Of a stretch of 64,000 bases of DNA, positions 38,668-52,188 are shown one piece after another. How positions within the stretch are numbered: position 1 is the stretch's first letter; every line of letters starts with the position of its first letter. The stretch is from assembly GCF_001542915.1 (NCBI RefSeq), contig NZ_LNNH01000012.1, positions 238,757 to 302,756 of the forward strand, read 5' to 3'. The DNA comes from Peribacillus simplex. GTDB lineage: Bacteria; Bacillota; Bacilli; Bacillales; DSM-1321. The notes under the pieces were generated by a model. The model was not told the DNA's origin and did not search any database. It saw only the letters and a list, made by a program, of their open reading frames with translations. Made by a program: the position numbers and the translations under genes.

Positions 38668-39601
38668 TTCCCCCCAGCCAAAGCATCAGTAAAAATAGAA
38701 AAGACGATCGATGCATGATGGCAATCGTTTTTGGTATATGTTTTGCCTCCAGCGGAACAAGCGGAACACCCATGCGCGCCCGGTCAGAAACTACTCCTTT
38801 GTACATATTGAGCCCGCCAAGCTGCACACCCAAAATCGCCGCTACGGCTGCTTCACACCAGCCGCTATTCGGACTTGGATGTTTCTTCGCATCACTGAAT
38901 AAGATCCTCCATCTGGCCTGAAGATCATGATGGCTAGACTTCGAGCATACTAGCATCAAAAATCCAGTGAGACGGCTGGGAAGGTAGTTCGCGATATCAT
39001 CGAGCTTTGCCGAAGCCCAGCCAAATTGGCCATATTTATCATTATTGTAGCCAACCATCGAATCACACGTATTGATTGCCCTGTATACCATCGCAAGCGG
39101 CGCCCCGCCAACCGCTGCCCAAAACAACGGGGCCGTTACTCCATCACTCGTATTTTCAGCTACGGTTTCAACAGTGCCCCTGACTATTTCGGACTCATCA
39201 AGCATGTCGGTATCACGGCCGACGATATAGGAAAGCTTAAGCCGCGCTTCAGGAAAATCCCTTTCATTCAGCGGACGGCACACCTCCATTCCAGCCTGCT
39301 TCAAACCCTTTTGGGCAATCGTAGTGGAAATCACGGCAGCTTCCCAAATGATTCCCGCCAGCGGATGGATAAGATAGGCCAAATAAACCGACAGACCTGT
39401 AAGCAATAGTACCGTCGTCAAGACGAAAGCCAGCATGAACAGTCCATTTCGTTTCTTATGTACGCCTTCATTGAATGTGCGATCGAGCTTGCTTATCATC
39501 GTTCCGATCCATTTGACTGGATGCGGCCAATTCGGCGGATCTCCTATTATCGAATCAAGGAAAAACGCCAGCGTAACGGCAAAAAGGTGATGATAGATCA
39601 T
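38636..39601 (-). CDS. cbiB: Adenosylcobinamide-phosphate synthase CbiB
   Basis: A 321-aa membrane enzyme attaching aminopropanol (phosphate) to adenosylcobyric acid. It begins with a hydrophobic FFLDSIIGDPPNWPHPVKWIG (about 12-32), and has VAENTSDGVTAPLFWAAVGG (about 150) and NSGWCEAAVAAILGVQLGG (about 245), all family motifs. It matches CbiZ action upstream, which yields cobyric acid. The start overlaps the ABC-CbiZ stop by 4 nt. Confidence 0.95.
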   Translation of the reverse strand: MIYHHLFAVTLAFFLDSIIGDPPNWPHPVKWIGTMISKLDRTFNEGVHKKRNGLFMLAFVLTTVLLLTGLSVYLAYLIHPLAGIIWEAAVISTTIAQKGLKQAGMEVCRPLNERDFPEARLKLSYIVGRDTDMLDESEIVRGTVETVAENTSDGVTAPLFWAAVGGAPLAMVYRAINTCDSMVGYNNDKYGQFGWASAKLDDIANYLPSRLTGFLMLVCSKSSHHDLQARWRILFSDAKKHPSPNSGWCEAAVAAILGVQLGGLNMYKGVVSDRARMGVPLVPLEAKHIPKTIAIMHRSSFLFLLMLWLGGIAFEITISWF

Positions 39602-41070
39602 AATGCCTCATTCCGTTTACGACTATTCCTTATTGCTTCGGCGGTACAATCATATACTCCGCGGCTGATCAGCTTCCCTAGCGGGGTGATGGTTCCTGCA
39701 TATTGAAGCTTCTCCCCTCTTTGTGTCGCTGCAATCGAGATGCTATCGGTCGATGTCCCTGTCGCATAGGTGTTCGTCACCTTGTCCAGAACCTCCAAAT
39801 CATGAAGCGCTTTTACTTTTGCCTCGGTCGCGGTAACGATGCTGTGAATGAACGCTTCTTCTGCCAGGTGGCCATTTACGAATATCCATGTATTGATGGT
39901 CCCTGGCGCAGAACTCCAGGAGTGGCGGTCCGCTAATGAAGCGTCGATCGCATTGCCGACTCCAGCCGTCACGATGATGAAAACCGAGAAACCTTCCGCT
40001 TTTACTAATTGGAAGGCAGCCGTATCAAGGAAGACTGCCGTCATCATCCCTACCGTTTCCTGCGGATCGATGTTATTGGCTTTTAAATAATCCGCCATTT
40101 CCGCAAGATGGTCGGCGCAATCATAATCGTGATGGACGTGCCTATTCACGAAATATCGATGCCAGCCCATCCCCGATCCAGTCACTCCAGAAGACATCGT
40201 TCTAAGGGGATTGGGGGCATTCAACCGGATCATCTCCCGCCCGACCGTCAAATGGGATTCATTGATTTCGAATGGTTCGTAATCGCTGCCATGCTTTTGG
40301 GGAACGATGAACATTTGCGGCTTCGGAAGTGCAGGATGCGGATGCTTTTCGATCGTCGTACGATAGACTTCCTGGATCAGGTCCTGTTGAAGCACTTCAT
40401 GAGGGGCAGCAAGGGCTTGGATTTTCCCTTTTGCAAGCAGCAAGAGCCGATCACAATATAATCCAGCCAGATTCAAGTCATGAAAAATCGATATGACGGT
40501 CAATTCCTGCTCCTTTGCCATCTTCCTCATCAAATCAAGAAGTTCCTTTTGATACGATAGATCCAAGTGGTTCGTCGGCTCATCCAAAAAAAGTACTTCA
40601 GGCTCCTGGGCCAGCGCCTGGGCCAGCAAGACCCGCTGTCTCTCCCCTCCTGATAGCCGTTCGAAATGAAGATCCTGGAATTCGGCCACTCCCGTTTGTT
40701 TCATCACCCGTTGGACAATCCTTTCATCCTCCTCAGACCAGCTGTGGAACCAGCCTGTTTGATGGGCGTACCTCCCAAGCGAGACCGTTTCCTTCACCGT
40801 ATACGAAAAAGCTAACGAGGAATGTTGAGGAAGCACCGCAATGACCCGTGCAAGCTGTTTTGCCGAATAATCCTGCAAATCTTTTCCTTTGATCCGTATG
40901 CTTCCTTGCTTGTAAGCGAGCACCCCGCTGAGCATACTCAACAGCGTCGTTTTTCCGCTGCCGTTTGGACCGAGGATCCCGAATAGTTCTCCTTTTTGAA
41001 CGTCGAAAGAGATGGAATCCAAAACGCTTTTGTTATCATATCCACCTGTTAACCCTTTAACTTCAAGCAT
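39598..41070 (-). CDS. BtuD-type ABC ATPase fused to adenosylcobinamide amidohydrolase CbiZ
   Basis: A 490-aa two-domain protein. Residues 1-250 are an ABC ATPase (Walker A GPNGSGKTTLLS about 35, signature LSGGERQRVLLAQALA, Walker B VLFLDEPTNH about 165). Residues 265-490 are a CbiZ domain (SSGVTGSGMGWHRYFVNRHV, VTAGVGNAIDAS, GTINTWIFVNGHLAEEAF) that cleaves the aminopropanol side chain from adenosylcobinamide/pseudocobalamin. The fusion ties corrinoid uptake to remodelling. It overlaps btuC and cbiB by 8 and 4 nt. Confidence 0.93.
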   Translation of the reverse strand: MLEVKGLTGGYDNKSVLDSISFDVQKGELFGILGPNGSGKTTLLSMLSGVLAYKQGSIRIKGKDLQDYSAKQLARVIAVLPQHSSLAFSYTVKETVSLGRYAHQTGWFHSWSEEDERIVQRVMKQTGVAEFQDLHFERLSGGERQRVLLAQALAQEPEVLFLDEPTNHLDLSYQKELLDLMRKMAKEQELTVISIFHDLNLAGLYCDRLLLLAKGKIQALAAPHEVLQQDLIQEVYRTTIEKHPHPALPKPQMFIVPQKHGSDYEPFEINESHLTVGREMIRLNAPNPLRTMSSGVTGSGMGWHRYFVNRHVHHDYDCADHLAEMADYLKANNIDPQETVGMMTAVFLDTAAFQLVKAEGFSVFIIVTAGVGNAIDASLADRHSWSSAPGTINTWIFVNGHLAEEAFIHSIVTATEAKVKALHDLEVLDKVTNTYATGTSTDSISIAATQRGEKLQYAGTITPLGKLISRGVYDCTAEAIRNSRKRNEAL

Positions 41071-42130
41071 CCGTCCTACCCACTCTCCGTCTCCTTAATA
41101 AAATGAGGGCAAATGCAGGTGCCCCGATCAGTGAGGTGATGACCCCGATCGGCAGTTCCGACGGGGCGATGATCGTCCGTGCCACAAGATCTGCCAAAAT
41201 CAAGAACCCGCTTCCTACCAGCAATGATAACGGAAGCAGATGCCTATGATCTGGCCCCCATATCCTCCGGACCAAATGGGGAATCACCAGCCCTACAAAG
41301 CCGATCGTGCCTGAAACGGCAACCGCTGCGCCCGTCAATATCGAGCCCGCGATCAGGATCCACATTTTCCGCCTCTGCACGTCGACACCTAAATGTTTTG
41401 CCCGGTCCTCCCCGAAGGTCATCGCATTCAATTCCCTCGTATTCATGATCAGAATCAACGAGCCAATGATGAAAAACGGCAGAATGATTCCGATATAATT
41501 CCACCCGCGCATGGACACGCTGCCCATGAGCCAGCCGATGATTTGTCTTAATTCCTCCCCCGTCAACGCAATCATCAAGGATATGAAGGCGCTTAAAAAC
41601 GAGCTGAAGATGATTCCGGTCAAAATGATCGTTTCGACCTTCATCGATCGATCCATTTTTTTTGCGAATGTCAGCACACAAAAAATCGTAATCACGGAAC
41701 ATAAGATGCTCAATGCAGGAAGCGTATATAAGCCGATGAACGGGAGTGATATATTCAGGAATAACGTCACCACTGCCCCGACTGATGCTCCTGACGATAT
41801 CCCGAGCGTGTAGGGATCGGCAAGCGGATTCCGGAGCAGCCCCTGAAATGCCGCACCCGCGATCGCCAAGCATGCCCCGACCAAACCAGCAAGCAATACA
41901 CGCGGCAAACGGATGTTCATCACGATATTCGTCAGCATCACATCGGGATCAGCGGAAATCGGCAAATGAAAAATCTCCTTGCCGATTATTTGCATAAGTA
42001 CGGGGATCGGTACGGACACCGAACCGAATGAGATGCCGATCGTACTGGCAAAAAGTAAAAACAATGACGCAAGCAAATAAGCAAGCGCCCATTTAGTTGT
42101 CAAATACGTTCGGATAGATTGATTTGGCAA
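41063..42130 (-). CDS. btuC: Cobalamin/corrinoid ABC permease BtuC
   Basis: A 355-aa FecCD-family permease with about nine to ten membrane helices and the typical IRLPRVLLAGLVGACLAIAGA stretch (split, about 75-95), GISSGASVGAVV and the ATPase-contact loop with GIGFVGLVIPHLVRR-like IGFVGLVIPHLVRRIWGPDHR (about 275). The operon places it as the B12 uptake permease. Overlaps btuF by 38 nt. Confidence 0.94.
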   Translation of the reverse strand: MPNQSIRTYLTTKWALAYLLASLFLLFASTIGISFGSVSVPIPVLMQIIGKEIFHLPISADPDVMLTNIVMNIRLPRVLLAGLVGACLAIAGAAFQGLLRNPLADPYTLGISSGASVGAVVTLFLNISLPFIGLYTLPALSILCSVITIFCVLTFAKKMDRSMKVETIILTGIIFSSFLSAFISLMIALTGEELRQIIGWLMGSVSMRGWNYIGIILPFFIIGSLILIMNTRELNAMTFGEDRAKHLGVDVQRRKMWILIAGSILTGAAVAVSGTIGFVGLVIPHLVRRIWGPDHRHLLPLSLLVGSGFLILADLVARTIIAPSELPIGVITSLIGAPAFALILLRRRRVGRTDA

Positions 42131-43064
42131 GTTCCTCTACTCCCTCTATTAAACGTGGACCTGAACGGGTCACCAAGTCGGAATGGACATCAAAGACTTG
42201 GGCATTCTTAACCGCCGTTACGTCTTGCCACCCTTTTCGGCCCGTCACTCCACTTACCGGGTCTTTTGTGTAATAACCATAAGTCGTAATGATGACATCC
42301 GGATTGGCTGCAATCATCGACTCTTCATCCATTTTGGCCCAGCCATCCACATCCGCTGCAGCATTATCAGCTGAGATCATCACAAGCATTTCATTCATGA
42401 ATGTATTTTTACCAGGTGTATAGATATCCGGGGACGGCGAAACCTCCACTAAAACGGTCTTTCTTTCCGATTCCGTTACCGATTTGGCCTTCTCGGAAAT
42501 AACCTTCAGCTTCGTTTTCATGTCCGTGATGATGTCTTTTGCCTTAGCTTGCTCGCCTGTTGCCATCCCGATCATATCAATGGATTTGTACACCTCATTG
42601 AAGCTTTGGGCATCATTGACTACAAGCACATCTATTCCCGCATCCTTAAGCTGCTGGAGCCCCTCCTTCGAATTATGGGCACTCGATGCATGGGCAAGAA
42701 CAAGATCGGGCTTCAAGGATACGATCAATTCCGTGTTCATCTCCATGCCGCCCACTTTTTCGATATCCTTCGTTTCTTCCGGGTAATTATCATTGTCGGA
42801 CACGCCAATAACCTTATTACCTAAACCAAGCGCAAAGACCACTTCCGTATTGCTTGGTATCAACGTAACGATTTTCTTCGGTTTTTCTTCTATCGTCACC
42901 TTTTCGCCCGTTGCATCTTTAATCGTAACCGGGAAGGCTTGTTGTGTAGCCTGATTCGTCTGCTGCTTTCCTTTTCCTTCATCGGCCGTGCCGCTGCAGC
43001 CAACCATCATGCCAGCCGTCAGCACCATCACCAGTATCAGGCCAAAAATCTTCTTCACGTTCAT
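42093..43064 (-). CDS. btuF: Cobalamin-binding lipoprotein BtuF
   Basis: A 323-aa periplasmic-type substrate-binding protein anchored as lipoprotein: signal peptide with lipobox MVGC near residue 22. The class III fold motifs include PKKIVTLIPSNTEVVFALG (about 65-83), VIGVSDNDNYPEE and LVLAHASSAHN. ATG 43064 follows TGTGGGGA. It is the first gene of the riboswitch-controlled operon and binds B12/cobinamide for BtuC. Confidence 0.94.
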   Translation of the reverse strand: MNVKKIFGLILVMVLTAGMMVGCSGTADEGKGKQQTNQATQQAFPVTIKDATGEKVTIEEKPKKIVTLIPSNTEVVFALGLGNKVIGVSDNDNYPEETKDIEKVGGMEMNTELIVSLKPDLVLAHASSAHNSKEGLQQLKDAGIDVLVVNDAQSFNEVYKSIDMIGMATGEQAKAKDIITDMKTKLKVISEKAKSVTESERKTVLVEVSPSPDIYTPGKNTFMNEMLVMISADNAAADVDGWAKMDEESMIAANPDVIITTYGYYTKDPVSGVTGRKGWQDVTAVKNAQVFDVHSDLVTRSGPRLIEGVEELAKSIYPNVFDN

Positions 43065-43115
43065 TCCCCACAATCATTTCATTTAGTTTTAGCCCGCCTT
43101 AAGCGAGGACCTCAT

Positions 43116-44674: not shown

Positions 44675-44912
44675 TTAAATATTTTTATTTAAAGTTCGAA
44701 TTTGAAATTATTCATGATGAAAGTTTCACAAAATACAGGATGGTTACTATTACCTGAATCAGTCACCAGTGCCATCCGTCACGCCAAGTTAGTTATTTGA
44801 CTATTCTTAATACTTCTCGTATAGTATATTAATCCAATGGGTTTTCTTTTATTTAAGTAGTTTTCGATACCTTATACAATAGTTCATGAATGAATTGGGA
44901 GGAAGATGCAGC

Positions 44913-45262
44913 ATGTCAAAAGAAATTGTGTTTAATCCACAGGTCACACCTCCGCGTGGTCCGTACGCACAGGCGATTAAAGTAAGTGAACGCAGAACCA
45001 CCATCTATACAGGGACGATCACAGCACTTGATGAGGATTAGAATGTTGTTGGTGCTGGAGATATTCGTGAACAGACGCGCAAAACGATCGAGAATTCGGA
45101 AAAAATCCTGGAAGCAGCAGGAGCTACCTTAGCAGACGTAGTAAAAACAACTTGGTATCTTACTGACATCACCCATATGCCTATCGTAGCGGAAATTCGC
45201 AATGAGATGTTTGGAGGCGCAATTCCTGCAAGTGATTCTTCTAAAATAGCTGCCTCATGTTT
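44913..45262 (+). pseudogene. ridA pseudogene (amber stop, truncated 3-prime end)
   Basis: The frame starts MSKEIVFNPQVTPPRGPYAQ with GGGAGGA upstream, and reads as a RidA/YjgF enamine deaminase. It has an in-frame TAG after 42 codons (45039-45041) and then continues in the same frame as AGDIREQTRKTIENSEKILE... to about SDSSKIAAS, where similarity ends. RidA proteins are near 125 aa and end in a conserved E-I-E-A-I-A-V strand, which is missing. This is a decayed gene next to a tRNA, as at island edges. Confidence 0.85.
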
Positions 45263-45321: not shown

Positions 45322-45603
45322 CTACTTTCTCCCTTTTTTAAAAGATGCTATAAGGAGGTTTAAAAAGAAGTGTATGATTAACCCAACTACGAAACTAAGG
45401 ATACACCCAAATATAGTTGCTTCAGATGAAAATGTTTGATTCTTTATCTCTATTATGTATAAGTACTCTCCGACCAAGGCAGGACTTGAAAAGATATTTG
45501 TATAACCCATTAGCATCAAAATTATTGGACTTACAAATACAATAAATAGATATAAAAACGCAAAAACAATCCCACTCGATATTGATTTTAAAATATTTAT
45601 CAT
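45322..45603 (-). CDS. Small membrane protein of the peptide-ABC-M50 cluster
   Basis: A 93-aa protein with two or three strongly hydrophobic segments (about 8-32 and 62-85) and a basic C-terminal tail ending KKGRK. I do not recognise it. It is the last gene of the AT-rich cluster, starting 1 nt after the M50 stop. A small cationic membrane protein in such a cluster could be an immunity protein, but this is inference. Confidence 0.6.
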   Translation of the reverse strand: MINILKSISSGIVFAFLYLFIVFVSPIILMLMGYTNIFSSPALVGEYLYIIEIKNQTFSSEATIFGCILSFVVGLIIHFFLNLLIASFKKGRK

Positions 45604-45966
45604 CTAATTCCCCTTCCATTCTTTAACTGCATTAATTATATTTCTACCATCAGGAAATCTAGGATGAAGCATAGTTAAATTTACAAATCTTAGTAATGTA
45701 AATAATTTTGTAAATTGGTTGTTTATAATAAATATTAAAATGAGTGATAGCAATACAGGAAGAATCGGACCTGAAACTGCAACTAAAATATTTTTGGACT
45801 GTTTTGTGAATTTTTCATGAACAACGTAGAAGTATTTAATATTCCATTCGAATCTTAAATGATAAAAAGGTTTAGACTCTGTCACATTAAATATCATAAT
45901 AGCAACAATATGACCTAGTTCATGTATAAGAAACACTAATAAAAAAGCACAGATAAACTCAATCAT
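45604..45966 (-). CDS. Miniature M50 site-2-protease-like metalloprotease
   Basis: A 120-aa membrane protein with the zinc motif FLIHELGHIVA in its first helix (about residues 11-20) and a second metal motif HPRFPDGRNI near residue 105, as in site-2-type intramembrane proteases. It is reduced to about three helices. ATG 45966 overlaps the permease stop (ATGA), giving coupling; a longer upstream reading frame overlaps the permease and is not used. It may process the 90-aa peptide encoded at the head of the cluster. Confidence 0.75.
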   Translation of the reverse strand: MIEFICAFLLVFLIHELGHIVAIMIFNVTESKPFYHLRFEWNIKYFYVVHEKFTKQSKNILVAVSGPILPVLLSLILIFIINNQFTKLFTLLRFVNLTMLHPRFPDGRNIINAVKEWKGN

Positions 45967-47363
45967 ATAAGAATAGGTTTCCTTAAATAGAGTCCCATAA
46001 TAATCAAAAATATTATAATAGAAAATCCTGTATATACTAATTGAATATAAATTTCTAATATGAAAGTTTGCTGAATAATAAAGTCGAAAATATTTACACA
46101 TGCTAATAAAAATATAACAATGAAAATTTTATTAAAATCATCAATCTTGATAAGAAAACTTACTAGAATGGAGAACATTGTAATAAACATGATTGAAAAA
46201 AGGGCACCATATAGATTTCCCATTTCTACTCCAAATAGGAAATAGGATAATAATAGAAAAAGGTAATAGCTAAAGCAATTAACAATATAACTAATTATTA
46301 CTCTTGTAGTAAAGTAAGGGTTTTTTTGGATATTTAAATTATATATTGCAATTTTATACTCTTTGAAGTGCATTCCAACCGTTAACGGTATCATAACCAA
46401 GATTTCTTTTAGCCCAAATTGTGTAATAAAAGAAAAAACCAAAAAGAAGTTATTTGCATCAAATATAAAGTAGGTACCCGTAGCCATCCCAATTAAGATA
46501 CAAAATACCAATCCTTGTTCTTTAAAGATTTGATTGCGAGTAAAGTTTATCCATTCAACATTCATCTGAAGTGAGTACTCATTATTAGTAAAAATACTTT
46601 TACTTTTATACTTTCTAACTAATCTACTTTCATTTTTTTGTTTTAAAATACTCATCAAATATCCAGTTGAAATCCTTCTAAATATAACTAGTAAGATAAA
46701 ACTCAAGAATAATAAAAGAGAAAAATAAAAACCGAGATGTTCCTCGAGAAAATTTTTCCAATATCTTTCTCCTAGGCTTATAGAACCAAAAAGGATAGTA
46801 ATTAATGCTATTGAACTTCCATATAAATTTTCTTTATCTTTATTTAAATACTTCATTAATAAAAAATTAGCGAGCATCCAAACAGTCATAGCAAAAATAA
46901 ATAAGAAGGATATTGTTAATAACAGTAATAATAGGGAAGAAAGATTTATTGTCATACCTTTAATCACCATAGCCAATAATAATGGAAAAAAGGAAAATAA
47001 CATGATTAATATGGAGAAAAGATATGTATGCACTAAGCTGCCCAATACCAACTCATATGCTTTAATAGAAGTGTTCATATAAAAAAAGATATAATTTCCA
47101 TGCTTCAATTTGTTTCTTGTAAATACCAAACAAAAACAAATAACGACTGTCCAAACCTTAATAACATTTATAAACATAGTTACTATATTAAAATCAATTT
47201 CTATTAATGTTTTTATAGTTAATGTAACATATACTGCATACATCAAAAGTAGGCCTATAACAATTGCCAAAATTAATGTGGTATACTTTTGTATTAACTC
47301 TTTTACCTTATGTATAATTCTTGGAGTTTCTATTTTCTGTACTACTTGAATGATCCATGTCAT
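45963..47363 (-). CDS. Large ABC-type permease of the peptide cluster
   Basis: A 466-aa very hydrophobic protein with about twelve predicted helices in two halves separated by a polar stretch (about 215-260), so it is likely a dimer-like single-chain permease. No known family motif is visible. The start ATG 47363 has GAGGAG 7 nt upstream, although it overlaps the ATPase gene by 56 nt. It pairs with the ATPase at 47308-48105. AT-rich codon use differs from the core genes. Confidence 0.75.
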   Translation of the reverse strand: MTWIIQVVQKIETPRIIHKVKELIQKYTTLILAIVIGLLLMYAVYVTLTIKTLIEIDFNIVTMFINVIKVWTVVICFCLVFTRNKLKHGNYIFFYMNTSIKAYELVLGSLVHTYLFSILIMLFSFFPLLLAMVIKGMTINLSSLLLLLLTISFLFIFAMTVWMLANFLLMKYLNKDKENLYGSSIALITILFGSISLGERYWKNFLEEHLGFYFSLLLFLSFILLVIFRRISTGYLMSILKQKNESRLVRKYKSKSIFTNNEYSLQMNVEWINFTRNQIFKEQGLVFCILIGMATGTYFIFDANNFFLVFSFITQFGLKEILVMIPLTVGMHFKEYKIAIYNLNIQKNPYFTTRVIISYIVNCFSYYLFLLLSYFLFGVEMGNLYGALFSIMFITMFSILVSFLIKIDDFNKIFIVIFLLACVNIFDFIIQQTFILEIYIQLVYTGFSIIIFLIIMGLYLRKPILI

Positions 47364-48105
47364 TTATTATCTCCTCTATATACTGATAGTATTCTTTATT
47401 AGCGCCTCTATATACTTCTTCTAAAGACAAACCTGTGAAACGTTCTTCAACTTCCTCCCTGTTCATGTTTATGATTATTTTTCCATCTCTTAAGATTATG
47501 AGCCTATTAAATAATTCTTGGCCGAAGTCCAAATTATGTGTAGAAAGAAGGATTCCAACACCTTGCGATTTTAGTTTTCCTAATACCCTCTTTAAAATAA
47601 TAATCATATCTGGATCAAGTCCATTTGTAGGTTCATCGAATACAACATATTCGCTTTTTCTACACAGTTGAGATACTATCTGTGTTTTCTTTTGATTTCC
47701 ATGTGATAATTGGATAATGGGTATATGTAAATATTTATCTAGCTCAAATATTCTAATTAATTGATTCAAAAATTCTTTGTTTTCACTTTGATTAAAAGAA
47801 CTTTGTACTAAATCAAAATACTCCATTGGTGTTAAATAATTCAACAATGAAATATCATCGGGTATATAAGCCATATTCTTTTTAAAAAGATCTACATCAC
47901 CTTGTAATTGAAAACAAATTTTGTGATCATCCAGTTTAACATTTCCATTAATATTTAATAATCCAAATAGAGATTTTATGATTGTTGTTTTTCCTGCACC
48001 ATTATGACCTAAAAGAAGGGTAGCTTCCCCTTTTTTTATTTCAACAGGAATATCAATTAATTCAAATGATTCAAACCTTTTTTCTTTTATATATAATGAA
48101 ATCAT
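47308..48105 (-). CDS. ABC transporter ATPase of the peptide cluster
   Basis: A 265-aa ABC ATPase: Walker A GHNGAGKTTIIKSL (about 33-46), an unusual signature LSHGNQKKTQIV in place of LSGGQ (about 140), Walker B YVVFDEPTNGLD (about 160) and the H-loop STHNLDF. The D-loop sequence suggests a CcmA/lantibiotic-export-type protein. It follows the peptide gene after a strong hairpin and overlaps the permease gene. The substrate is likely the 90-aa peptide or its product. Confidence 0.85.
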   Translation of the reverse strand: MISLYIKEKRFESFELIDIPVEIKKGEATLLLGHNGAGKTTIIKSLFGLLNINGNVKLDDHKICFQLQGDVDLFKKNMAYIPDDISLLNYLTPMEYFDLVQSSFNQSENKEFLNQLIRIFELDKYLHIPIIQLSHGNQKKTQIVSQLCRKSEYVVFDEPTNGLDPDMIIILKRVLGKLKSQGVGILLSTHNLDFGQELFNRLIILRDGKIIINMNREEVEERFTGLSLEEVYRGANKEYYQYIEEIINDMDHSSSTENRNSKNYT

Positions 48106-48136
48106 AAATTCTCCCCTATTTAGGCTATTGTTTCAA

Positions 48137-48170
48137 CCTTAGGATTGTCAAACACTCGACAACCCTAAGG
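48137..48170 (-). terminator. Strong intercistronic hairpin between peptide and ABC genes
   Basis: Minus-strand CCTTAGGGTTGTC and GACAATCCTAAGG form a 13-bp stem with one G-U pair and an 8-nt loop, but no T-run. Such a hairpin after a small precursor gene commonly acts as a partial terminator or mRNA stabiliser. Confidence 0.7.
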
Positions 48171-48176
48171 CTCCAC

Positions 48177-48449
48177 TTAACCACATTTGATTTTAATATA
48201 AAGTCCTGACATTTTAAATTCACCTAAAAATTTCGAGCCACTTCCATAGGTTTTACACGCCCAGATTAATGCTGCCACACTAGCAACTCCTAAAATAATT
48301 AAAAGAACTACAATCCAAAATGCATTTTTTTGAGTAGTCACAGATTTTTTTAACTCTTCTTGTGAATGAGCGACATTTTGAAAAAAATTCATAACCAAAA
48401 GATATAACTGCATAGATAAATTGTTAGCGAAATTTAGAGTAGATAACAT
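48177..48449 (-). CDS. Putative peptide precursor / membrane peptide
   Basis: A 90-aa protein with an excellent AAAGGAGG site 7-8 nt before ATG. It has an amphipathic N-terminal region (about 1-27), a polar linker, one strong hydrophobic segment (about 44-69, ending WAC) and a basic C-terminal tail containing a second Cys (penultimate IKCG), giving a Cys-X22-Cys pair. It resembles no bacteriocin or pheromone I recognise. Heading an ABC-M50 operon it is the likely substrate: a cleaved C-terminal peptide, or a holin-like toxin. No modifying enzyme is adjacent. Confidence 0.7.
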   Translation of the reverse strand: MLSTLNFANNLSMQLYLLVMNFFQNVAHSQEELKKSVTTQKNAFWIVVLLIILGVASVAALIWACKTYGSGSKFLGEFKMSGLYIKIKCG

Positions 48450-49321: not shown

Positions 49322-49462
49322 ATGAGTATTTACAGCCGATGGAATCCAGAGAATGATGAAGCGATTTTCAGTCCAGGTGATCAGCAGCCATTCAGTACGC
49401 TCATACGAGTAGATTCCGAAAAACACACAAAAAAAATGGACAACACACTTGAATATGAATGA
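49322..49462 (+). CDS. Microprotein of the WN-END-SPGDQ type, second copy
   Basis: A 46-aa soluble polar protein starting MSIYSRWNPENDEAIFSPGD, with GGAGG about 12 nt upstream in the same arrangement as the truncated copy at 49175. No domain is recognised. Its terminator follows at 49511. A role is unknown; the tandem copies argue that the family is real. It has no signal peptide or cysteines. Confidence 0.55.
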   Translation: MSIYSRWNPENDEAIFSPGDQQPFSTLIRVDSEKHTKKMDNTLEYE

Positions 49463-49510
49463 CATGGCACCGTACTGAATGAAATTTAGTCGAAGCAGTA
49501 ATATACAGAA

Positions 49511-49541
49511 AAAGGATGGAGCGAATGCTCCATCCTTTTTT
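49511..49541 (+). terminator. Terminator after the microprotein gene
   Basis: The stem aaaggatggagc / gctccatccttttt with a 4-nt loop and T-run lies 50 nt after the 46-aa ORF. Confidence 0.88.
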
Positions 49542-49925
49542 CTTGTGCGCACTGCAGGCATACGGCGCATTTGTTACACGTGAAACACTTTCCTTGTGGC
49601 CGCATTCACGATCCTGACAGACAAGCATTTCCCCCTTTTCATTATTCACTACACGCATCAGCCTGCCACATGATCTTGCTTGCATTTCTGGCGCATATCG
49701 TCAATGAAAACCTGTTTGGCAAGAATTCCTTTTGCAATCGCCGTTAGCTTTTGCTCCTCCTGTGCCGTCTAAGCAGGCGACCTCAGGTCTTCAGGCGCCA
49801 ACTCGAGGAGTTGCTTTCCTTTTGAATTTACGTGAAGGCCCTTCCCTCTCTTTTCGACCAAGAAGCTTTCGAACAGTTGCCACTGTCCCGATCCCGGCGG
49901 CTTCGTTTCAAGGGCTCAAATGAAC
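49535..49925 (-). pseudogene. topB remnant (C-terminal part, several stops and a frameshift)
   Basis: On the minus strand the translation matches the intact TopB nearby in successive pieces: F-E-S-F-L-V-E-K-R-G, HVNSKGKQLLELAPEDLRSP, then a stop (49769-49771), EEQKLTAIAKGILAKQVFID, a stop and frame change, and VCQDRECGH with RVTNA from the zinc-finger region. This corresponds to roughly residues 510-640 of the 730-aa protein. The remnant lies only about 70 nt upstream of the intact topB but in the opposite orientation, implying an inversion or replacement. Confidence 0.88.
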
Positions 49926-49995: not shown

Positions 49996-52188
49996 ATGTC
50001 AAAAAGTGTGGTAATTGCTGAAAAGCCTTCAGTTGCACGTGATATTGCGAATGTATTGAAGTGTAATAAAAAAGGAAATGGATTTTTAGAAGGCGATAAG
50101 TATATCGTTACGTGGGCATTAGGTCATCTGGTTACTCTAGCAGATCCAGAGGCATACGATATGAAATATAAAACATGGAAGCTGGAAGACCTGCCTATGC
50201 TTCCTGAAAGCATGAAGCTAGTTGTCATGAAACAAACCGGAAAGCAATTCAACGCAGTTAAAACGCAATTGACTCGCAATGATGTGAATGAAATAATCGT
50301 GGCGACTGATGCGGGGAGAGAAGGAGAATTAGTTGCACGATGGATCATCGAGAAAACAAAAGTGAATAAGCCCATCAAACGTCTCTGGATTTCTTCCGTA
50401 ACGGATAAAGCAATTAAGGATGGATTCAATAACTTAAAGCCTGGTAAAGAGTATGAAGACTTATATACTTCTGCAGTAGCACGTTCGGAAGCGGATTGGT
50501 ATATCGGTTTAAATGCAACCCGTGCCTTAACGACAAAATTCAATGCGCAATTAAACTGTGGACGCGTTCAGACACCGACGGTTGCAATGGTTGCAGCACG
50601 CGAAGAGGAAATTGCGAATTTCAAACCGCAAACCTATTATGGAATCGAAGCCCAAACGGATGGACTTAAATTAACGTGGCAAGATGAAAATGGAAATAGC
50701 CGCAGCTTTAATAAAGAAAAGACCGATGCAATCGTGAAATCGCTTGGAAGTAAAGATGCGACTGTTGTTTCCATTGACCGCAAAGCAAAGAAAACATTCG
50801 CACCTGGTCTATATGATTTAACAGAGTTACAACGTGATGGGAATAAACTCTTTGGCTATTCTGCTAAAGAAACATTGAACATCATGCAAAAATTGTATGA
50901 GCATCACAAGGTCTTGACTTATCCGCGTACAGATTCACGATATATATCATCCGATATCGTCGGTACGCTTCCGGAGCGTTTAAAAGCCTGTGCCATAGGT
51001 GAATATCGTCCTCTTGCAAATAAGGTGTTGAATAAGCCTATTAAGACGTCAAAAGCATTTGTCGATGATAGTAAAGTCAGTGATCACCATGCCATTATTC
51101 CGACCGAGGGTTATGTGAATCTTTCAGCCTTCACTGACAAAGAACGCAAAATCTACGACCTTGTCGTGAAACGTTTCTTGGCAGTTTTATTCCCTGCGTT
51201 TGAATATGAGCAATTGACGGTGCAAACGAAAATTGGCGATCAAACGTTTATCGCTAGAGGAAAATCCGTGATTCATTCCGGCTGGAAAGAAGTTTATGCA
51301 AACCACTTTGATGATGAAGAATCAACAGAGGATGTAAAAGAGCAGCTATTGCCTCGTATGGAAAAAGACGATGTATTAAAGACAAAATTAATCACTCAAA
51401 CGTCAGGCCAAACAAAGCCACCAGCACGCTTTACGGAGGCGACTTTACTATCAGCAATGGAAAACCCTGCGAAATACATGAAAACAAACGATAAGAAGCT
51501 GGCAGACACGTTGAAATCAACGGGCGGACTTGGAACAGTCGCCACTCGTGCCGATATCATCGATAAGCTATTCAATTCGTTCTTATTCGAAAAACGCGGC
51601 GGCAAGGACATCCATATCACATCCAAGGGACGTCAGCTTTTGGATTTAGTGCCAGAAAAGCTGAAATCTCCTGCGACAACAGCTGAATGGGAACAAAAGC
51701 TCGAGCTAATCGCAAAAGGGAAACTGAAAAAAGACGTGTTCATCAATGAAATGAAAAATTACACAAAAGAGATTGTCAGTGCAATCAAAACGAGTGACAA
51801 AAAATATAAACACGACAATATCTCAACGAAATCTTGTCCAGACTGTGGTAAGCCCATGCTTGAAGTGAATAGTAAAAAAGGTAAAATGCTCGTCTGCCAA
51901 GATCGTGAATGCGGCCATAAAAAGAACGTCGCCCGTGTAACGAATGCACGCTGCCCGCAATGTAAAAAGAAAATGGAATTGCGTGGTGAAGGCGACGGTC
52001 AAATCTTCACATGTAAATGCGGATATCGCGAAAAACTGTCTGCTTTTGAAGCAAGACGGAAGAAAGAAACTGGCGGAAAAGTGGATAAACGTTCCGTACA
52101 AAAGTACTTAAAAGAGCAGGAAAAAGAAGCGGAACCGATTAATAATCCATTTGCGGATTTATTAAAAGGGTTTAATTTAGATAAATAA
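49996..52188 (+). CDS. topB: DNA topoisomerase III
   Basis: A 730-aa type IA topoisomerase that passes single strands and helps decatenate DNA. The N-terminal Toprim domain starts KSVVIAEKPSVARDIANVLK and has the acidic DAGREGELVARWI (about 103). The active tyrosine lies in TYPRTDSRYISSDIVG (about 315). The C-terminus has two zinc-binding units: CPDCGKPM...CQDRECGH and CPQCKKKM...CKCGY (about 610-680). AAGGGAG precedes the ATG. Intact, in contrast to the inverted remnant upstream. Confidence 0.95.
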   Translation: MSKSVVIAEKPSVARDIANVLKCNKKGNGFLEGDKYIVTWALGHLVTLADPEAYDMKYKTWKLEDLPMLPESMKLVVMKQTGKQFNAVKTQLTRNDVNEIIVATDAGREGELVARWIIEKTKVNKPIKRLWISSVTDKAIKDGFNNLKPGKEYEDLYTSAVARSEADWYIGLNATRALTTKFNAQLNCGRVQTPTVAMVAAREEEIANFKPQTYYGIEAQTDGLKLTWQDENGNSRSFNKEKTDAIVKSLGSKDATVVSIDRKAKKTFAPGLYDLTELQRDGNKLFGYSAKETLNIMQKLYEHHKVLTYPRTDSRYISSDIVGTLPERLKACAIGEYRPLANKVLNKPIKTSKAFVDDSKVSDHHAIIPTEGYVNLSAFTDKERKIYDLVVKRFLAVLFPAFEYEQLTVQTKIGDQTFIARGKSVIHSGWKEVYANHFDDEESTEDVKEQLLPRMEKDDVLKTKLITQTSGQTKPPARFTEATLLSAMENPAKYMKTNDKKLADTLKSTGGLGTVATRADIIDKLFNSFLFEKRGGKDIHITSKGRQLLDLVPEKLKSPATTAEWEQKLELIAKGKLKKDVFINEMKNYTKEIVSAIKTSDKKYKHDNISTKSCPDCGKPMLEVNSKKGKMLVCQDRECGHKKNVARVTNARCPQCKKKMELRGEGDGQIFTCKCGYREKLSAFEARRKKETGGKVDKRSVQKYLKEQEKEAEPINNPFADLLKGFNLDK

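Follow-up and report, generated by a model that had tools for sequence, protein, structure and literature searches.

The TMcins form a recently established class of bacteriocins that are anchored by a helix and form pores; they were described in a 2025 article in Nat Commun (PMC12328743) and a 2026 preprint (PMC13252029), and their discoverers regard the clusters as having escaped genome mining. Processing steps, export and killing were shown experimentally for TMcin-G1905 of S. aureus G1905, whose peptide is cleaved by an intramembrane protease (DUF3267), has its C-terminal loop closed by a disulfide and is exported by an ABC pair (PMC13252029, PMC12328743). The precursor, TmcA-G1905, is encoded by a 297-bp gene and has a 45-residue leader, with cysteines C25 and C50 in the mature peptide (PMC13252029, PMC12328743). 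The protease TmcP is described as having four helices and is filed under PF11667, and tmcE is needed for TmcA proteolysis, TmcE being published as an escort (PMC13252029). Homologues are reported in Bacillota, some of them chromosomal (PMC12328743, PMC13252029), with three gene arrangements (PMC12328743).

The locus studied here comprises five minus-strand genes at positions 45322-48449 of a 64,000-nt stretch of Peribacillus simplex DNA (the window), with a GC content of 27.4% compared to 44.0% for the window as a whole. All five frames given in the initial annotation were present at their places in this AT-rich segment, and the overlaps reported there between the ATPase and permease genes (56 nt, 47308-47363) and between the permease and protease genes (ATGA, 45963-45966) were confirmed. 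The gene order is A-B-C-P-E (tmcA-, tmcB-, tmcC-, tmcP- and tmcE-like; Table 1). Based on a comparison with the published TMcins by features and description, the operon is very probably a TMcin biosynthetic gene cluster in Peribacillus. Given this match in anatomy, the locus would be a member of the class published in 2025, and neither an unknown family nor an epipeptide cluster. The earlier view that the peptide stands outside any known family was accordingly not upheld, as its features fit TMcin.

Table 1. Features of the TMcin-like locus of Peribacillus simplex (positions in the 64,000-nt window).
Feature	Size	Position	Strand	Remarks
tmcA-like precursor	90 aa	48177-48449	-	leader, helix 44-62, W45 and W63, C65-X23-C89 loop
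Predicted leader	residues 1-40	48330-48449	-	assumes first Cys = mature residue 25, as in TMcin-G1905
RNA stem-loop between tmcA and tmcB		48135-48173	-	folding z = -5.0; not listed as terminator-like
tmcB-like ABC ATPase	265 aa	47308-48105	-	
tmcC-like ABC permease	466 aa	45963-47363	-	12 hydrophobic segments
tmcP-like mini site-2 protease	120 aa	45604-45966	-	HELGH, distal FPDG; best Pfam PF11667/DUF3267
tmcE-like two-helix membrane protein	93 aa	45322-45603	-	conserved outside loop

Across several families of the order to which the window belongs, 24 readable loci carry the peptide. Gene order was identical in all of them and five open frames were found in 23, so that the conserved order sought by the initial annotation does recur in other genera and families, where the locus proteins are 25–61% identical to those of the window. 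In one clade of 15 genomes, the median pairwise dN/dS over the five genes was 0.09–0.20, indicating purifying selection. The recurrence of the order in other genera and families, together with the purifying selection on each gene in this clade, indicates more than a chance arrangement. Among 397 genomes sampled from the order, the permease profile gave 11 matches. The peptide profile also gave 11, one of which was spurious (G323, unrelated and with two stops; dropped before counting), and the other 10 were all permease carriers; eight of these 10 true matches were rows of the profile used, while G200 and G270 were not. A match in G873 was an unrelated 216-aa frame and was likewise removed before counting. 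Further members were found by the profiles, e.g., G200, G929 and G867. In a plasmid collection, tblastn gave no matches for five permeases, one protease and the window peptide, no link to phages was found using one permease as query, and a peptide scan of viral contigs returned 12 pattern matches with no relatives among them. A LuxR-type response regulator lies ~4.5 kb from locus L053.

Within the precursor, the cysteines at 65 and 89 correct the Cys-X22-Cys spacing first annotated. Both cysteines were found in 14/14 compared peptides, spaced X23 in 13 and X21 in one, and in each of the 14 a 19-residue stretch with a mean hydropathy of 2.4–3.0 precedes the Cys loop; in the window peptide, one hydrophobic segment lay above the threshold. 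The first tryptophan was present in 13/13 rows and both helix-flanking tryptophans in 12/13, the G041 peptide being without the second and having the X21 spacing. Assuming a cysteine position like that in TMcin-G1905, the cut is predicted inside a conserved Q-x-N motif, and the predicted mature lengths are 48–51 aa across the peptides, compared to 53 aa for TMcin-G1905. The window peptide had no NCBIfam match at E <= 1, and a Pfam match to SecE (E 0.008) was rejected as weak and looking like a generic helix match. Behind the precursor gene, the stem-loop was present in 12/13 folded loci (z <= -2.7), with stem sequences that differ between genera. It is perhaps a partial terminator or an mRNA stabiliser that would keep the precursor in excess. 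The frequency of promoter-like sites was not above that in shuffled sequences.

For the protease gene, the start at the ATGA fits most relatives and yields the tabulated length, while the ORF tool begins at 46101 (165 aa). The HExGH and PDG motifs were found in 10/10 aligned proteases, and all 10 matched PF11667 at E <= 0.01, the window protease with a score of 23.4 bits, which is below the gathering cut-off of 27.1. The G929 protease, outside the aligned set, matched PF11667 at E 0.018 and Peptidase_M50 at E 0.00085. Simple hydropathy gave two hydrophobic segments in the window protease and 2–4 across the family, compared to the four helices described for TmcP, and the best solved-structure match of the protease profile was SpoIVFB (E 0.08). 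The weak PF11667 scores, the segment counts of the protease and the deviating G041 peptide speak against the TMcin assignment.

The initial annotation had likened the locus to epipeptide and Skf clusters, and one rival reading is a cannibalism cluster of the epipeptide (EpeX/YydF) or Skf kind whose modification enzyme was lost. The epeXEPAB (yydFGHIJ) locus likewise combines a small peptide, a membrane M50 protease (EpeP) and an ABC pair, and EpeAB gives autoimmunity (PMC10885120, PMC12871923). The protease family also showed a weak hhalign match to EpeP around HELGH (32%). However, the absence of a radical SAM enzyme noted by the same annotation was borne out by Pfam scans of the 12 window proteins and of 20 of the 74 flanking frames from eight other loci, the remaining flanking frames being inspected by eye only. 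Moreover, hhalign gave 0.2% against one EpeX and 2.4% against one EpeB, and the precursor had no NCBIfam match to YydF/EpeX (TIGR04077) at E <= 1. In one genus, the YydF family occurred in 6/44 genomes and in none of the 15 with this peptide. The epeXEPAB locus further differs in its epimerase EpeE, its 49-aa precursor family and its 17-aa linear product. With no radical SAM gene among the scanned proteins and no detectable kinship of the peptide or the permease, epipeptide membership was dropped and descent from such a cluster is considered extremely improbable; what remains is a logic common to epipeptide loci and this operon.

The 12 helices annotated for the permease agree with a simple Kyte-Doolittle count, and among the aligned permeases (n = 10) seven had 12 segments, two had 13 and one had 11. 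No Pfam (E <= 1) or NCBIfam match was obtained for the window permease, and hhalign against the genome's own EcsB gave 0.1% (with a single sequence on one side), so that membership of EcsB/PptB (PF05975) was dropped. This result also speaks against a signalling-peptide cassette, which would unite the logic of Eep and PptAB/EcsAB in one operon, with the protease freeing a pheromone and the ABC pair exporting it. The Eep/RseP and PptAB/EcsAB systems resemble this locus in that a site-2 protease acts first and an ABC transporter then exports the membrane-derived peptide, and Eep and EcsAB are reported to process and export linear peptides (PMC7157817, PMC10202637). The locus ATPase shares 32% identity with the one that neighbours EcsB in the same genome, a kinship that is common among ABC ATPases, and the peptide is strongly conserved, with a median dN/dS of 0.13 in the 15-genome clade. 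The substrates of those systems, in contrast, are lipoprotein signal peptides and their products are small and linear (PMC7157817). Inspection of the loci by eye and a Pfam scan of 20 flanking proteins revealed no constant receptor or regulator neighbour. Short linear pheromones are also unlike a 50-aa helix-plus-loop peptide, and TMcin-G1905 kills. A signalling role is hence rated as highly improbable.

TmcE-like proteins have two hydrophobic segments with a loop of 31–36 residues between them (11 aligned rows), and the gene was found in 24/24 readable peptide loci. A PHROG holin match of the small protein (E 0.0026) was weak, appeared to be a generic helix match and was rejected, as were further matches of this kind. 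The proposal of the initial annotation that the 93-aa protein confers immunity is half right at best, as its position is that of TmcE, the cleavage escort, whereas the decay of loci leans towards protection. The biosynthesis preprint states that self-immunity was not investigated (PMC13252029), and tmcE was not found described as an immunity gene in the literature searched, which covered few subscription journals and included the accessible text of PMC12328743 and PMC13252029. Immunity through TmcE would explain why, in decaying loci, tmcE persists longer than the genes for the toxin, the protease and the transporter, and immunity based on the loop would explain why an orphan tmcE retains that loop as its helices drift. 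Four loci were without an intact peptide core, and in three of them (G824, G140 and G980) tmcE was still open at full length; in G837, only the last 59 codons remain. For the G824 orphan, intact pairs served as the reference: the loop had 0.094 differences/site (0.079 in the reference) and the helices 0.415 (0.089 in the reference). This regional comparison was chosen after the sequence was seen and covers one lineage; in it, the ancestor is represented by the closest codons, which hides synonymous changes. The G824 tmcE branch had a dN/dS of 1.15 (bootstrap 0.22 up to the limit of 9), compared to 0.06–0.14 for three intact branches, so purifying selection on the orphan is not shown by dN/dS. 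Its 27 amino-acid changes lay above most neutral simulations (mean 21.6), and its stop-free frame is uninformative, since 33% of the simulations were also without stops. Charge complementarity between the peptide loop and the TmcE loop was inconsistent, with a peptide loop charge of 0 in 2/14.

That TmcE acts only as an escort for cleavage and export, the orphan copies being debris of deletions that spared the last gene, has in our estimate slightly better than even chances. The requirement of tmcE for proteolysis (PMC13252029), its last position in the operon, the truncated G837 copy and the G824 branch with its many amino-acid changes all fit this reading; the full open frames without a tmcA core and the normal rate of the G824 loop beside diverged helices do not. 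Overall, we lean towards a protective role from locus decay, on few cases and with some results contrary, and the G824 orphan hints, in a single lineage, at an additional role of TmcE in protecting producers. A combined role, in which TmcE would be both escort and self-immunity protein and would prevent pore assembly by capping the TMcin beta-loop with its outside beta-loop rather than its helices, is put forward tentatively, at somewhat less than an even chance.

For the TMcin assignment, the core mechanism first proposed (intramembrane cut, disulfide loop, ABC export) is largely right by close analogy with the TMcin-G1905 experiments, from which we infer every biochemical step and activity at the Peribacillus locus. 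Gene content and order, conservation, motifs, selection and co-occurrence are what the analysis itself shows. TmcA would insert N-in/C-out via its own helix, and TmcP, helped by TmcE, would cut near the cytoplasmic helix end at the predicted Q-x-N, removing the ~40-residue leader. A disulfide would close the 23-residue outer loop, TmcBC would pull the ~50-residue helix-plus-beta-loop peptide from the membrane and release it, and the released peptide may form pores in other Gram-positive cells. The loci described here add TMcin-type members in several genera of the order to which the window belongs, together with profiles that find more, a predicted cleavage motif and a stem-loop that recurs downstream of tmcA, and their natural gene-loss cases bear on TMcin self-immunity.

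In direct comparison, the Peribacillus locus and TMcin-G1905 share a peptide made up of a leader, a helix flanked by tryptophans and a C-terminal loop with two cysteines, as well as a DUF3267-type site-2 protease, an ATPase with a 12-helix permease and a two-helix small protein. TMcin-G1905 has tmcD (DsbA) and a regulatory operon, neither of which was found at the Peribacillus locus; the Pfam scan, which covered 12 proteins of the window and 20 encoded beside eight other loci, gave no DsbA-like gene, and non-staphylococcal TMcin clusters are likewise reported to be without one (PMC13252029). The cysteine spacing is X23 in the Peribacillus peptide and X24 in TMcin-G1905, and the leader is predicted at ~40 aa compared to 45. 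Finally, the TMcin-G1905 cluster sits on a plasmid, whereas the Peribacillus locus is carried by an 813-kb contig, presumably the chromosome.

The operon, which comprises five genes running leftward from 48449 to 45322 of the window, had a GC content of 27.4% versus 44.0% for the window. The order peptide, ATPase, permease, protease and small protein was found in 24/24 readable peptide loci, namely those of the window, G017 (same genus), G041 (a further relative), six genomes of a 146-genome family and 15 of a 44-genome genus. The operon proposed in the initial annotation was confirmed, and its order recurs in other genomes. All five frames were open in 23 of these loci; in the exception, G867, the protease was broken into two frames (contig L054, 6988–7348) while the peptide gene was intact, which may reflect real decay or an assembly error. 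Of 74 flanking proteins listed, 20 were scanned, drawn from eight loci; they differed from one locus to the next and were mostly metabolic or transport proteins. Since the flanking proteins are unrelated between loci, the five genes are the unit.

Genes of the window operon, in order of transcription
Feature	Position	Strand
Peptide gene, 90 aa	first of five leftward genes	minus
ABC ATPase gene, 265 aa	second of five leftward genes	minus
Permease gene, 466 aa	third of five leftward genes	minus
Mini site-2 protease gene, 120 aa, start at ATGA	fourth of five leftward genes	minus
Two-helix protein gene, 93 aa	fifth of five leftward genes	minus

All 14 peptides compared had two C-terminal cysteines after a hydrophobic stretch and a Q-x-N motif upstream of it. 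The cysteine spacing, annotated as X22, was X23 in 13/14 and X21 in G041. Of 13 aligned rows, 12 had tryptophans 20–21 and 2 residues ahead of the first cysteine, whereas G041 had a single one at −17. The protease carried HExGH and PDG in 10/10 aligned rows, all of which matched PF11667/DUF3267 at E ≤ 0.01, the window protein under the curated cut-off; outside this set, the protease of relative G929 matched at E 0.018 only. The permease had no Pfam or NCBIfam family match and no solved-structure match by sequence. The small protein consisted of two helices with an intervening loop of 31–36 residues. In the two TMcin papers (PMC12328743, PMC13252029), TmcA has a leader of 45 residues and a helix bordered by two conserved tryptophans, and its product a C25–C50 disulfide; TmcP is a DUF3267 site-2 protease; TmcBC are an ATPase and a 12-helix permease; TmcE has two helices, is required for proteolysis and has been put forward as an escort; and TmcD (DsbA) is absent outside staphylococci. 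Because the anatomy agrees with these papers, the window operon is very probably a TMcin cluster, an assignment based on features matched to the published description. The peptide, annotated as matching no known family, thus fits a class published in 2025 (PMC12328743), with its biosynthesis in a 2026 preprint (PMC13252029) and homologues reported from Bacillota and Actinomycetota, some of them chromosomal (PMC12328743). The proposed mechanism of protease cut, disulfide and ABC export is largely borne out by the same texts, and would extend to the window operon by analogy. If the first cysteine is residue 25, as in TMcin-G1905, the S. aureus-borne reference, the window peptide would be cut between Q40 and K41, within the Q-x-N motif, to give a 50-residue product; the same count places the predicted cut a few residues either side of the motif in G929, G867 and G041.

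The permease profile matched 11/397 genomes in the order sample and 2/398 in the phylum sample, the latter two being the genome of the window and one that was known before. In an order sample of equal size (397), the peptide profile gave 11 matches, of which 10 were true, all in permease carriers; eight of these were rows of the search profile itself, with G270 and G200 outside it. The match in G323 was spurious and was excluded. G200 encodes a clear family member, its operon divided between two contigs. In the 146-genome family six genomes had true matches, a seventh (G873) being false. When eno was compared with that of one member, the 44-genome genus separated into 17 genomes with ≥ 94% DNA identity and 27 with ≤ 88%; all 15 peptide carriers fell within the former, a clade that we take to be the Bacillus pumilus group, with the peptide ≤ 0.3 kb from eno in 14 and 1.3 kb away in G829. 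The epipeptide YydF, present in six genomes of this genus, did not co-occur with the TMcin-type peptide. Searches of plasmids, phages and viral contigs found no family members.

Within Peribacillus, a Bacillaceae genus, the permease was present in only one of 34 same-genus genomes (G017), and a Peribacillus sp. SI8-4 record holds a peptide 98% identical to that of the window. This rarity, together with the low GC content, suggests recent acquisition within the genus. The operon is flanked on one side by tRNA-Arg and a broken, presumably RidA-like frame (44910–45240), and on the other by topoisomerase III. The former frame adjoins the operon, has an in-frame stop, lacks its end and looks like a pseudogene; at 1e-5, its first part matched nothing in Pfam. 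A decayed, inverted partial copy of the topoisomerase III gene (49567–49670 versus 51844–51947, 77% over 104 nt), with related frames at 49401–49685 and 49769–49861, separates the operon from the intact gene and may be a scar left by acquisition. On both contigs of G200 the operon adjoins a 206-aa frame (L088 526–1146; L022 2274–2894); the two frames start very similarly (compared by eye), possibly another neighbour-gene duplication. At 39598–43073, an ABC ATPase–CbiZ (adenosylcobinamide amidohydrolase) fusion lies beside genes of the FecCD and periplasmic binding protein types, an arrangement suggestive of uptake and salvage of cobinamide or B12.

The gap between the peptide and ATPase genes was folded in 13 of the 24 loci, the window and G017 being near-identical copies. 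Strong stem-loops were obtained in 12/13 (z −2.7 to −6.5), the exception being G041 (z −0.5). The stem sequences differ between genera, so that the structure recurs and not the letters. A terminator scan of the window did not list this stem-loop, which could act as a partial terminator or stabiliser keeping precursor mRNA above machinery mRNA.

Four loci lacked an intact peptide core. G140 had no peptide ahead of the ATPase and a decayed protease, with ATPase, permease and tmcE open; it was absent from the peptide-profile matches of the order sample, seemingly the same as the permease sample. G980 (assembly 88% complete) had, ahead of the ATPase, a leader-like 38-residue frame that matched the profile weakly (E 0.022), and one in-frame stop in the permease, with ATPase, protease and tmcE open. 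In G824, read by eye, a deletion extends from the 5' part of the peptide to the 3' end of the protease, and tmcE survives with its frame open and preceded by a ribosome site. In G837, tmcE was reduced to its last 59 codons. Hence tmcE was open in 3/4 core-less and 24/24 peptide-bearing loci; no tmcE relic was found downstream of eno in the 22 genomes searched of the 27 same-genus genomes outside the clade.

This retention bears on the annotated immunity role of the 93-aa protein. TmcE is presumed in the preprint to prevent autotoxicity via predicted beta-sheet pairing with TMcin, although by its own account that study did not investigate self-immunity (PMC13252029). Median dN/dS in the 15-genome clade was 0.13 for the peptide, 0.09 for the ATPase, 0.17 for the permease, 0.20 for the protease and 0.10 for the small protein. 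On the G824 tmcE branch it was 1.15 (bootstrap 0.22 to the upper limit of 9, 200 resamplings), versus 0.06–0.14 on three intact branches, and pairwise values against the 15 intact genes were 0.17–0.38; its amino-acid changes exceeded nearly all neutral simulations and its ends had likewise diverged, all of which counts against a protective role for producers. The distribution of the changes favours such a role. Between intact pairs, the loop has diverged as much as the helices (0.079 and 0.089 per site), compared with 0.094 and 0.415 between G824 and intact TmcE, and residues absent from all 15 numbered 15/48 in the helices and 1/27 in the loop (Fisher p 0.007). In neutral simulations, P was 0.003 for at most one loop change and 0.07 for helices that gained no polar residue; both jointly, with no stop, occurred in 0/5000. 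The pattern fits a TmcE that has lost its helix partners with the loop still in use. As the signal comes from a single lineage and the test was post hoc, protection by TmcE is a lead, not a result. What is new here is the set of loci, the recurring hairpin and the pattern in which tmcE is retained.

In line with the annotation, Pfam scans of 12 window proteins and 20 flanking proteins turned up no epipeptide-type radical SAM gene. Given this and hhalign probabilities of 0.2% against one EpeX and 2.4% against one EpeB, the operon was rejected as an epipeptide cluster; the match to one EpeP (32%) was confined to the HELGH surroundings. The permease had no recognisable relation to EcsB. The ATPase was 32% identical to the ATPase beside EcsB and, over a shorter stretch, 26% identical to EpeA, and ABC ATPases tend to show such identity to one another. 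What stands of the annotated epipeptide/Skf-like architecture is the logic of intramembrane protease plus ABC pump, common to the epipeptide, EcsB-type and window systems. With the TMcin-G1905 cluster, the window operon shares the two-Trp helix, the two-Cys loop, the DUF3267 protease, the ATPase and permease, and the two-helix protein.
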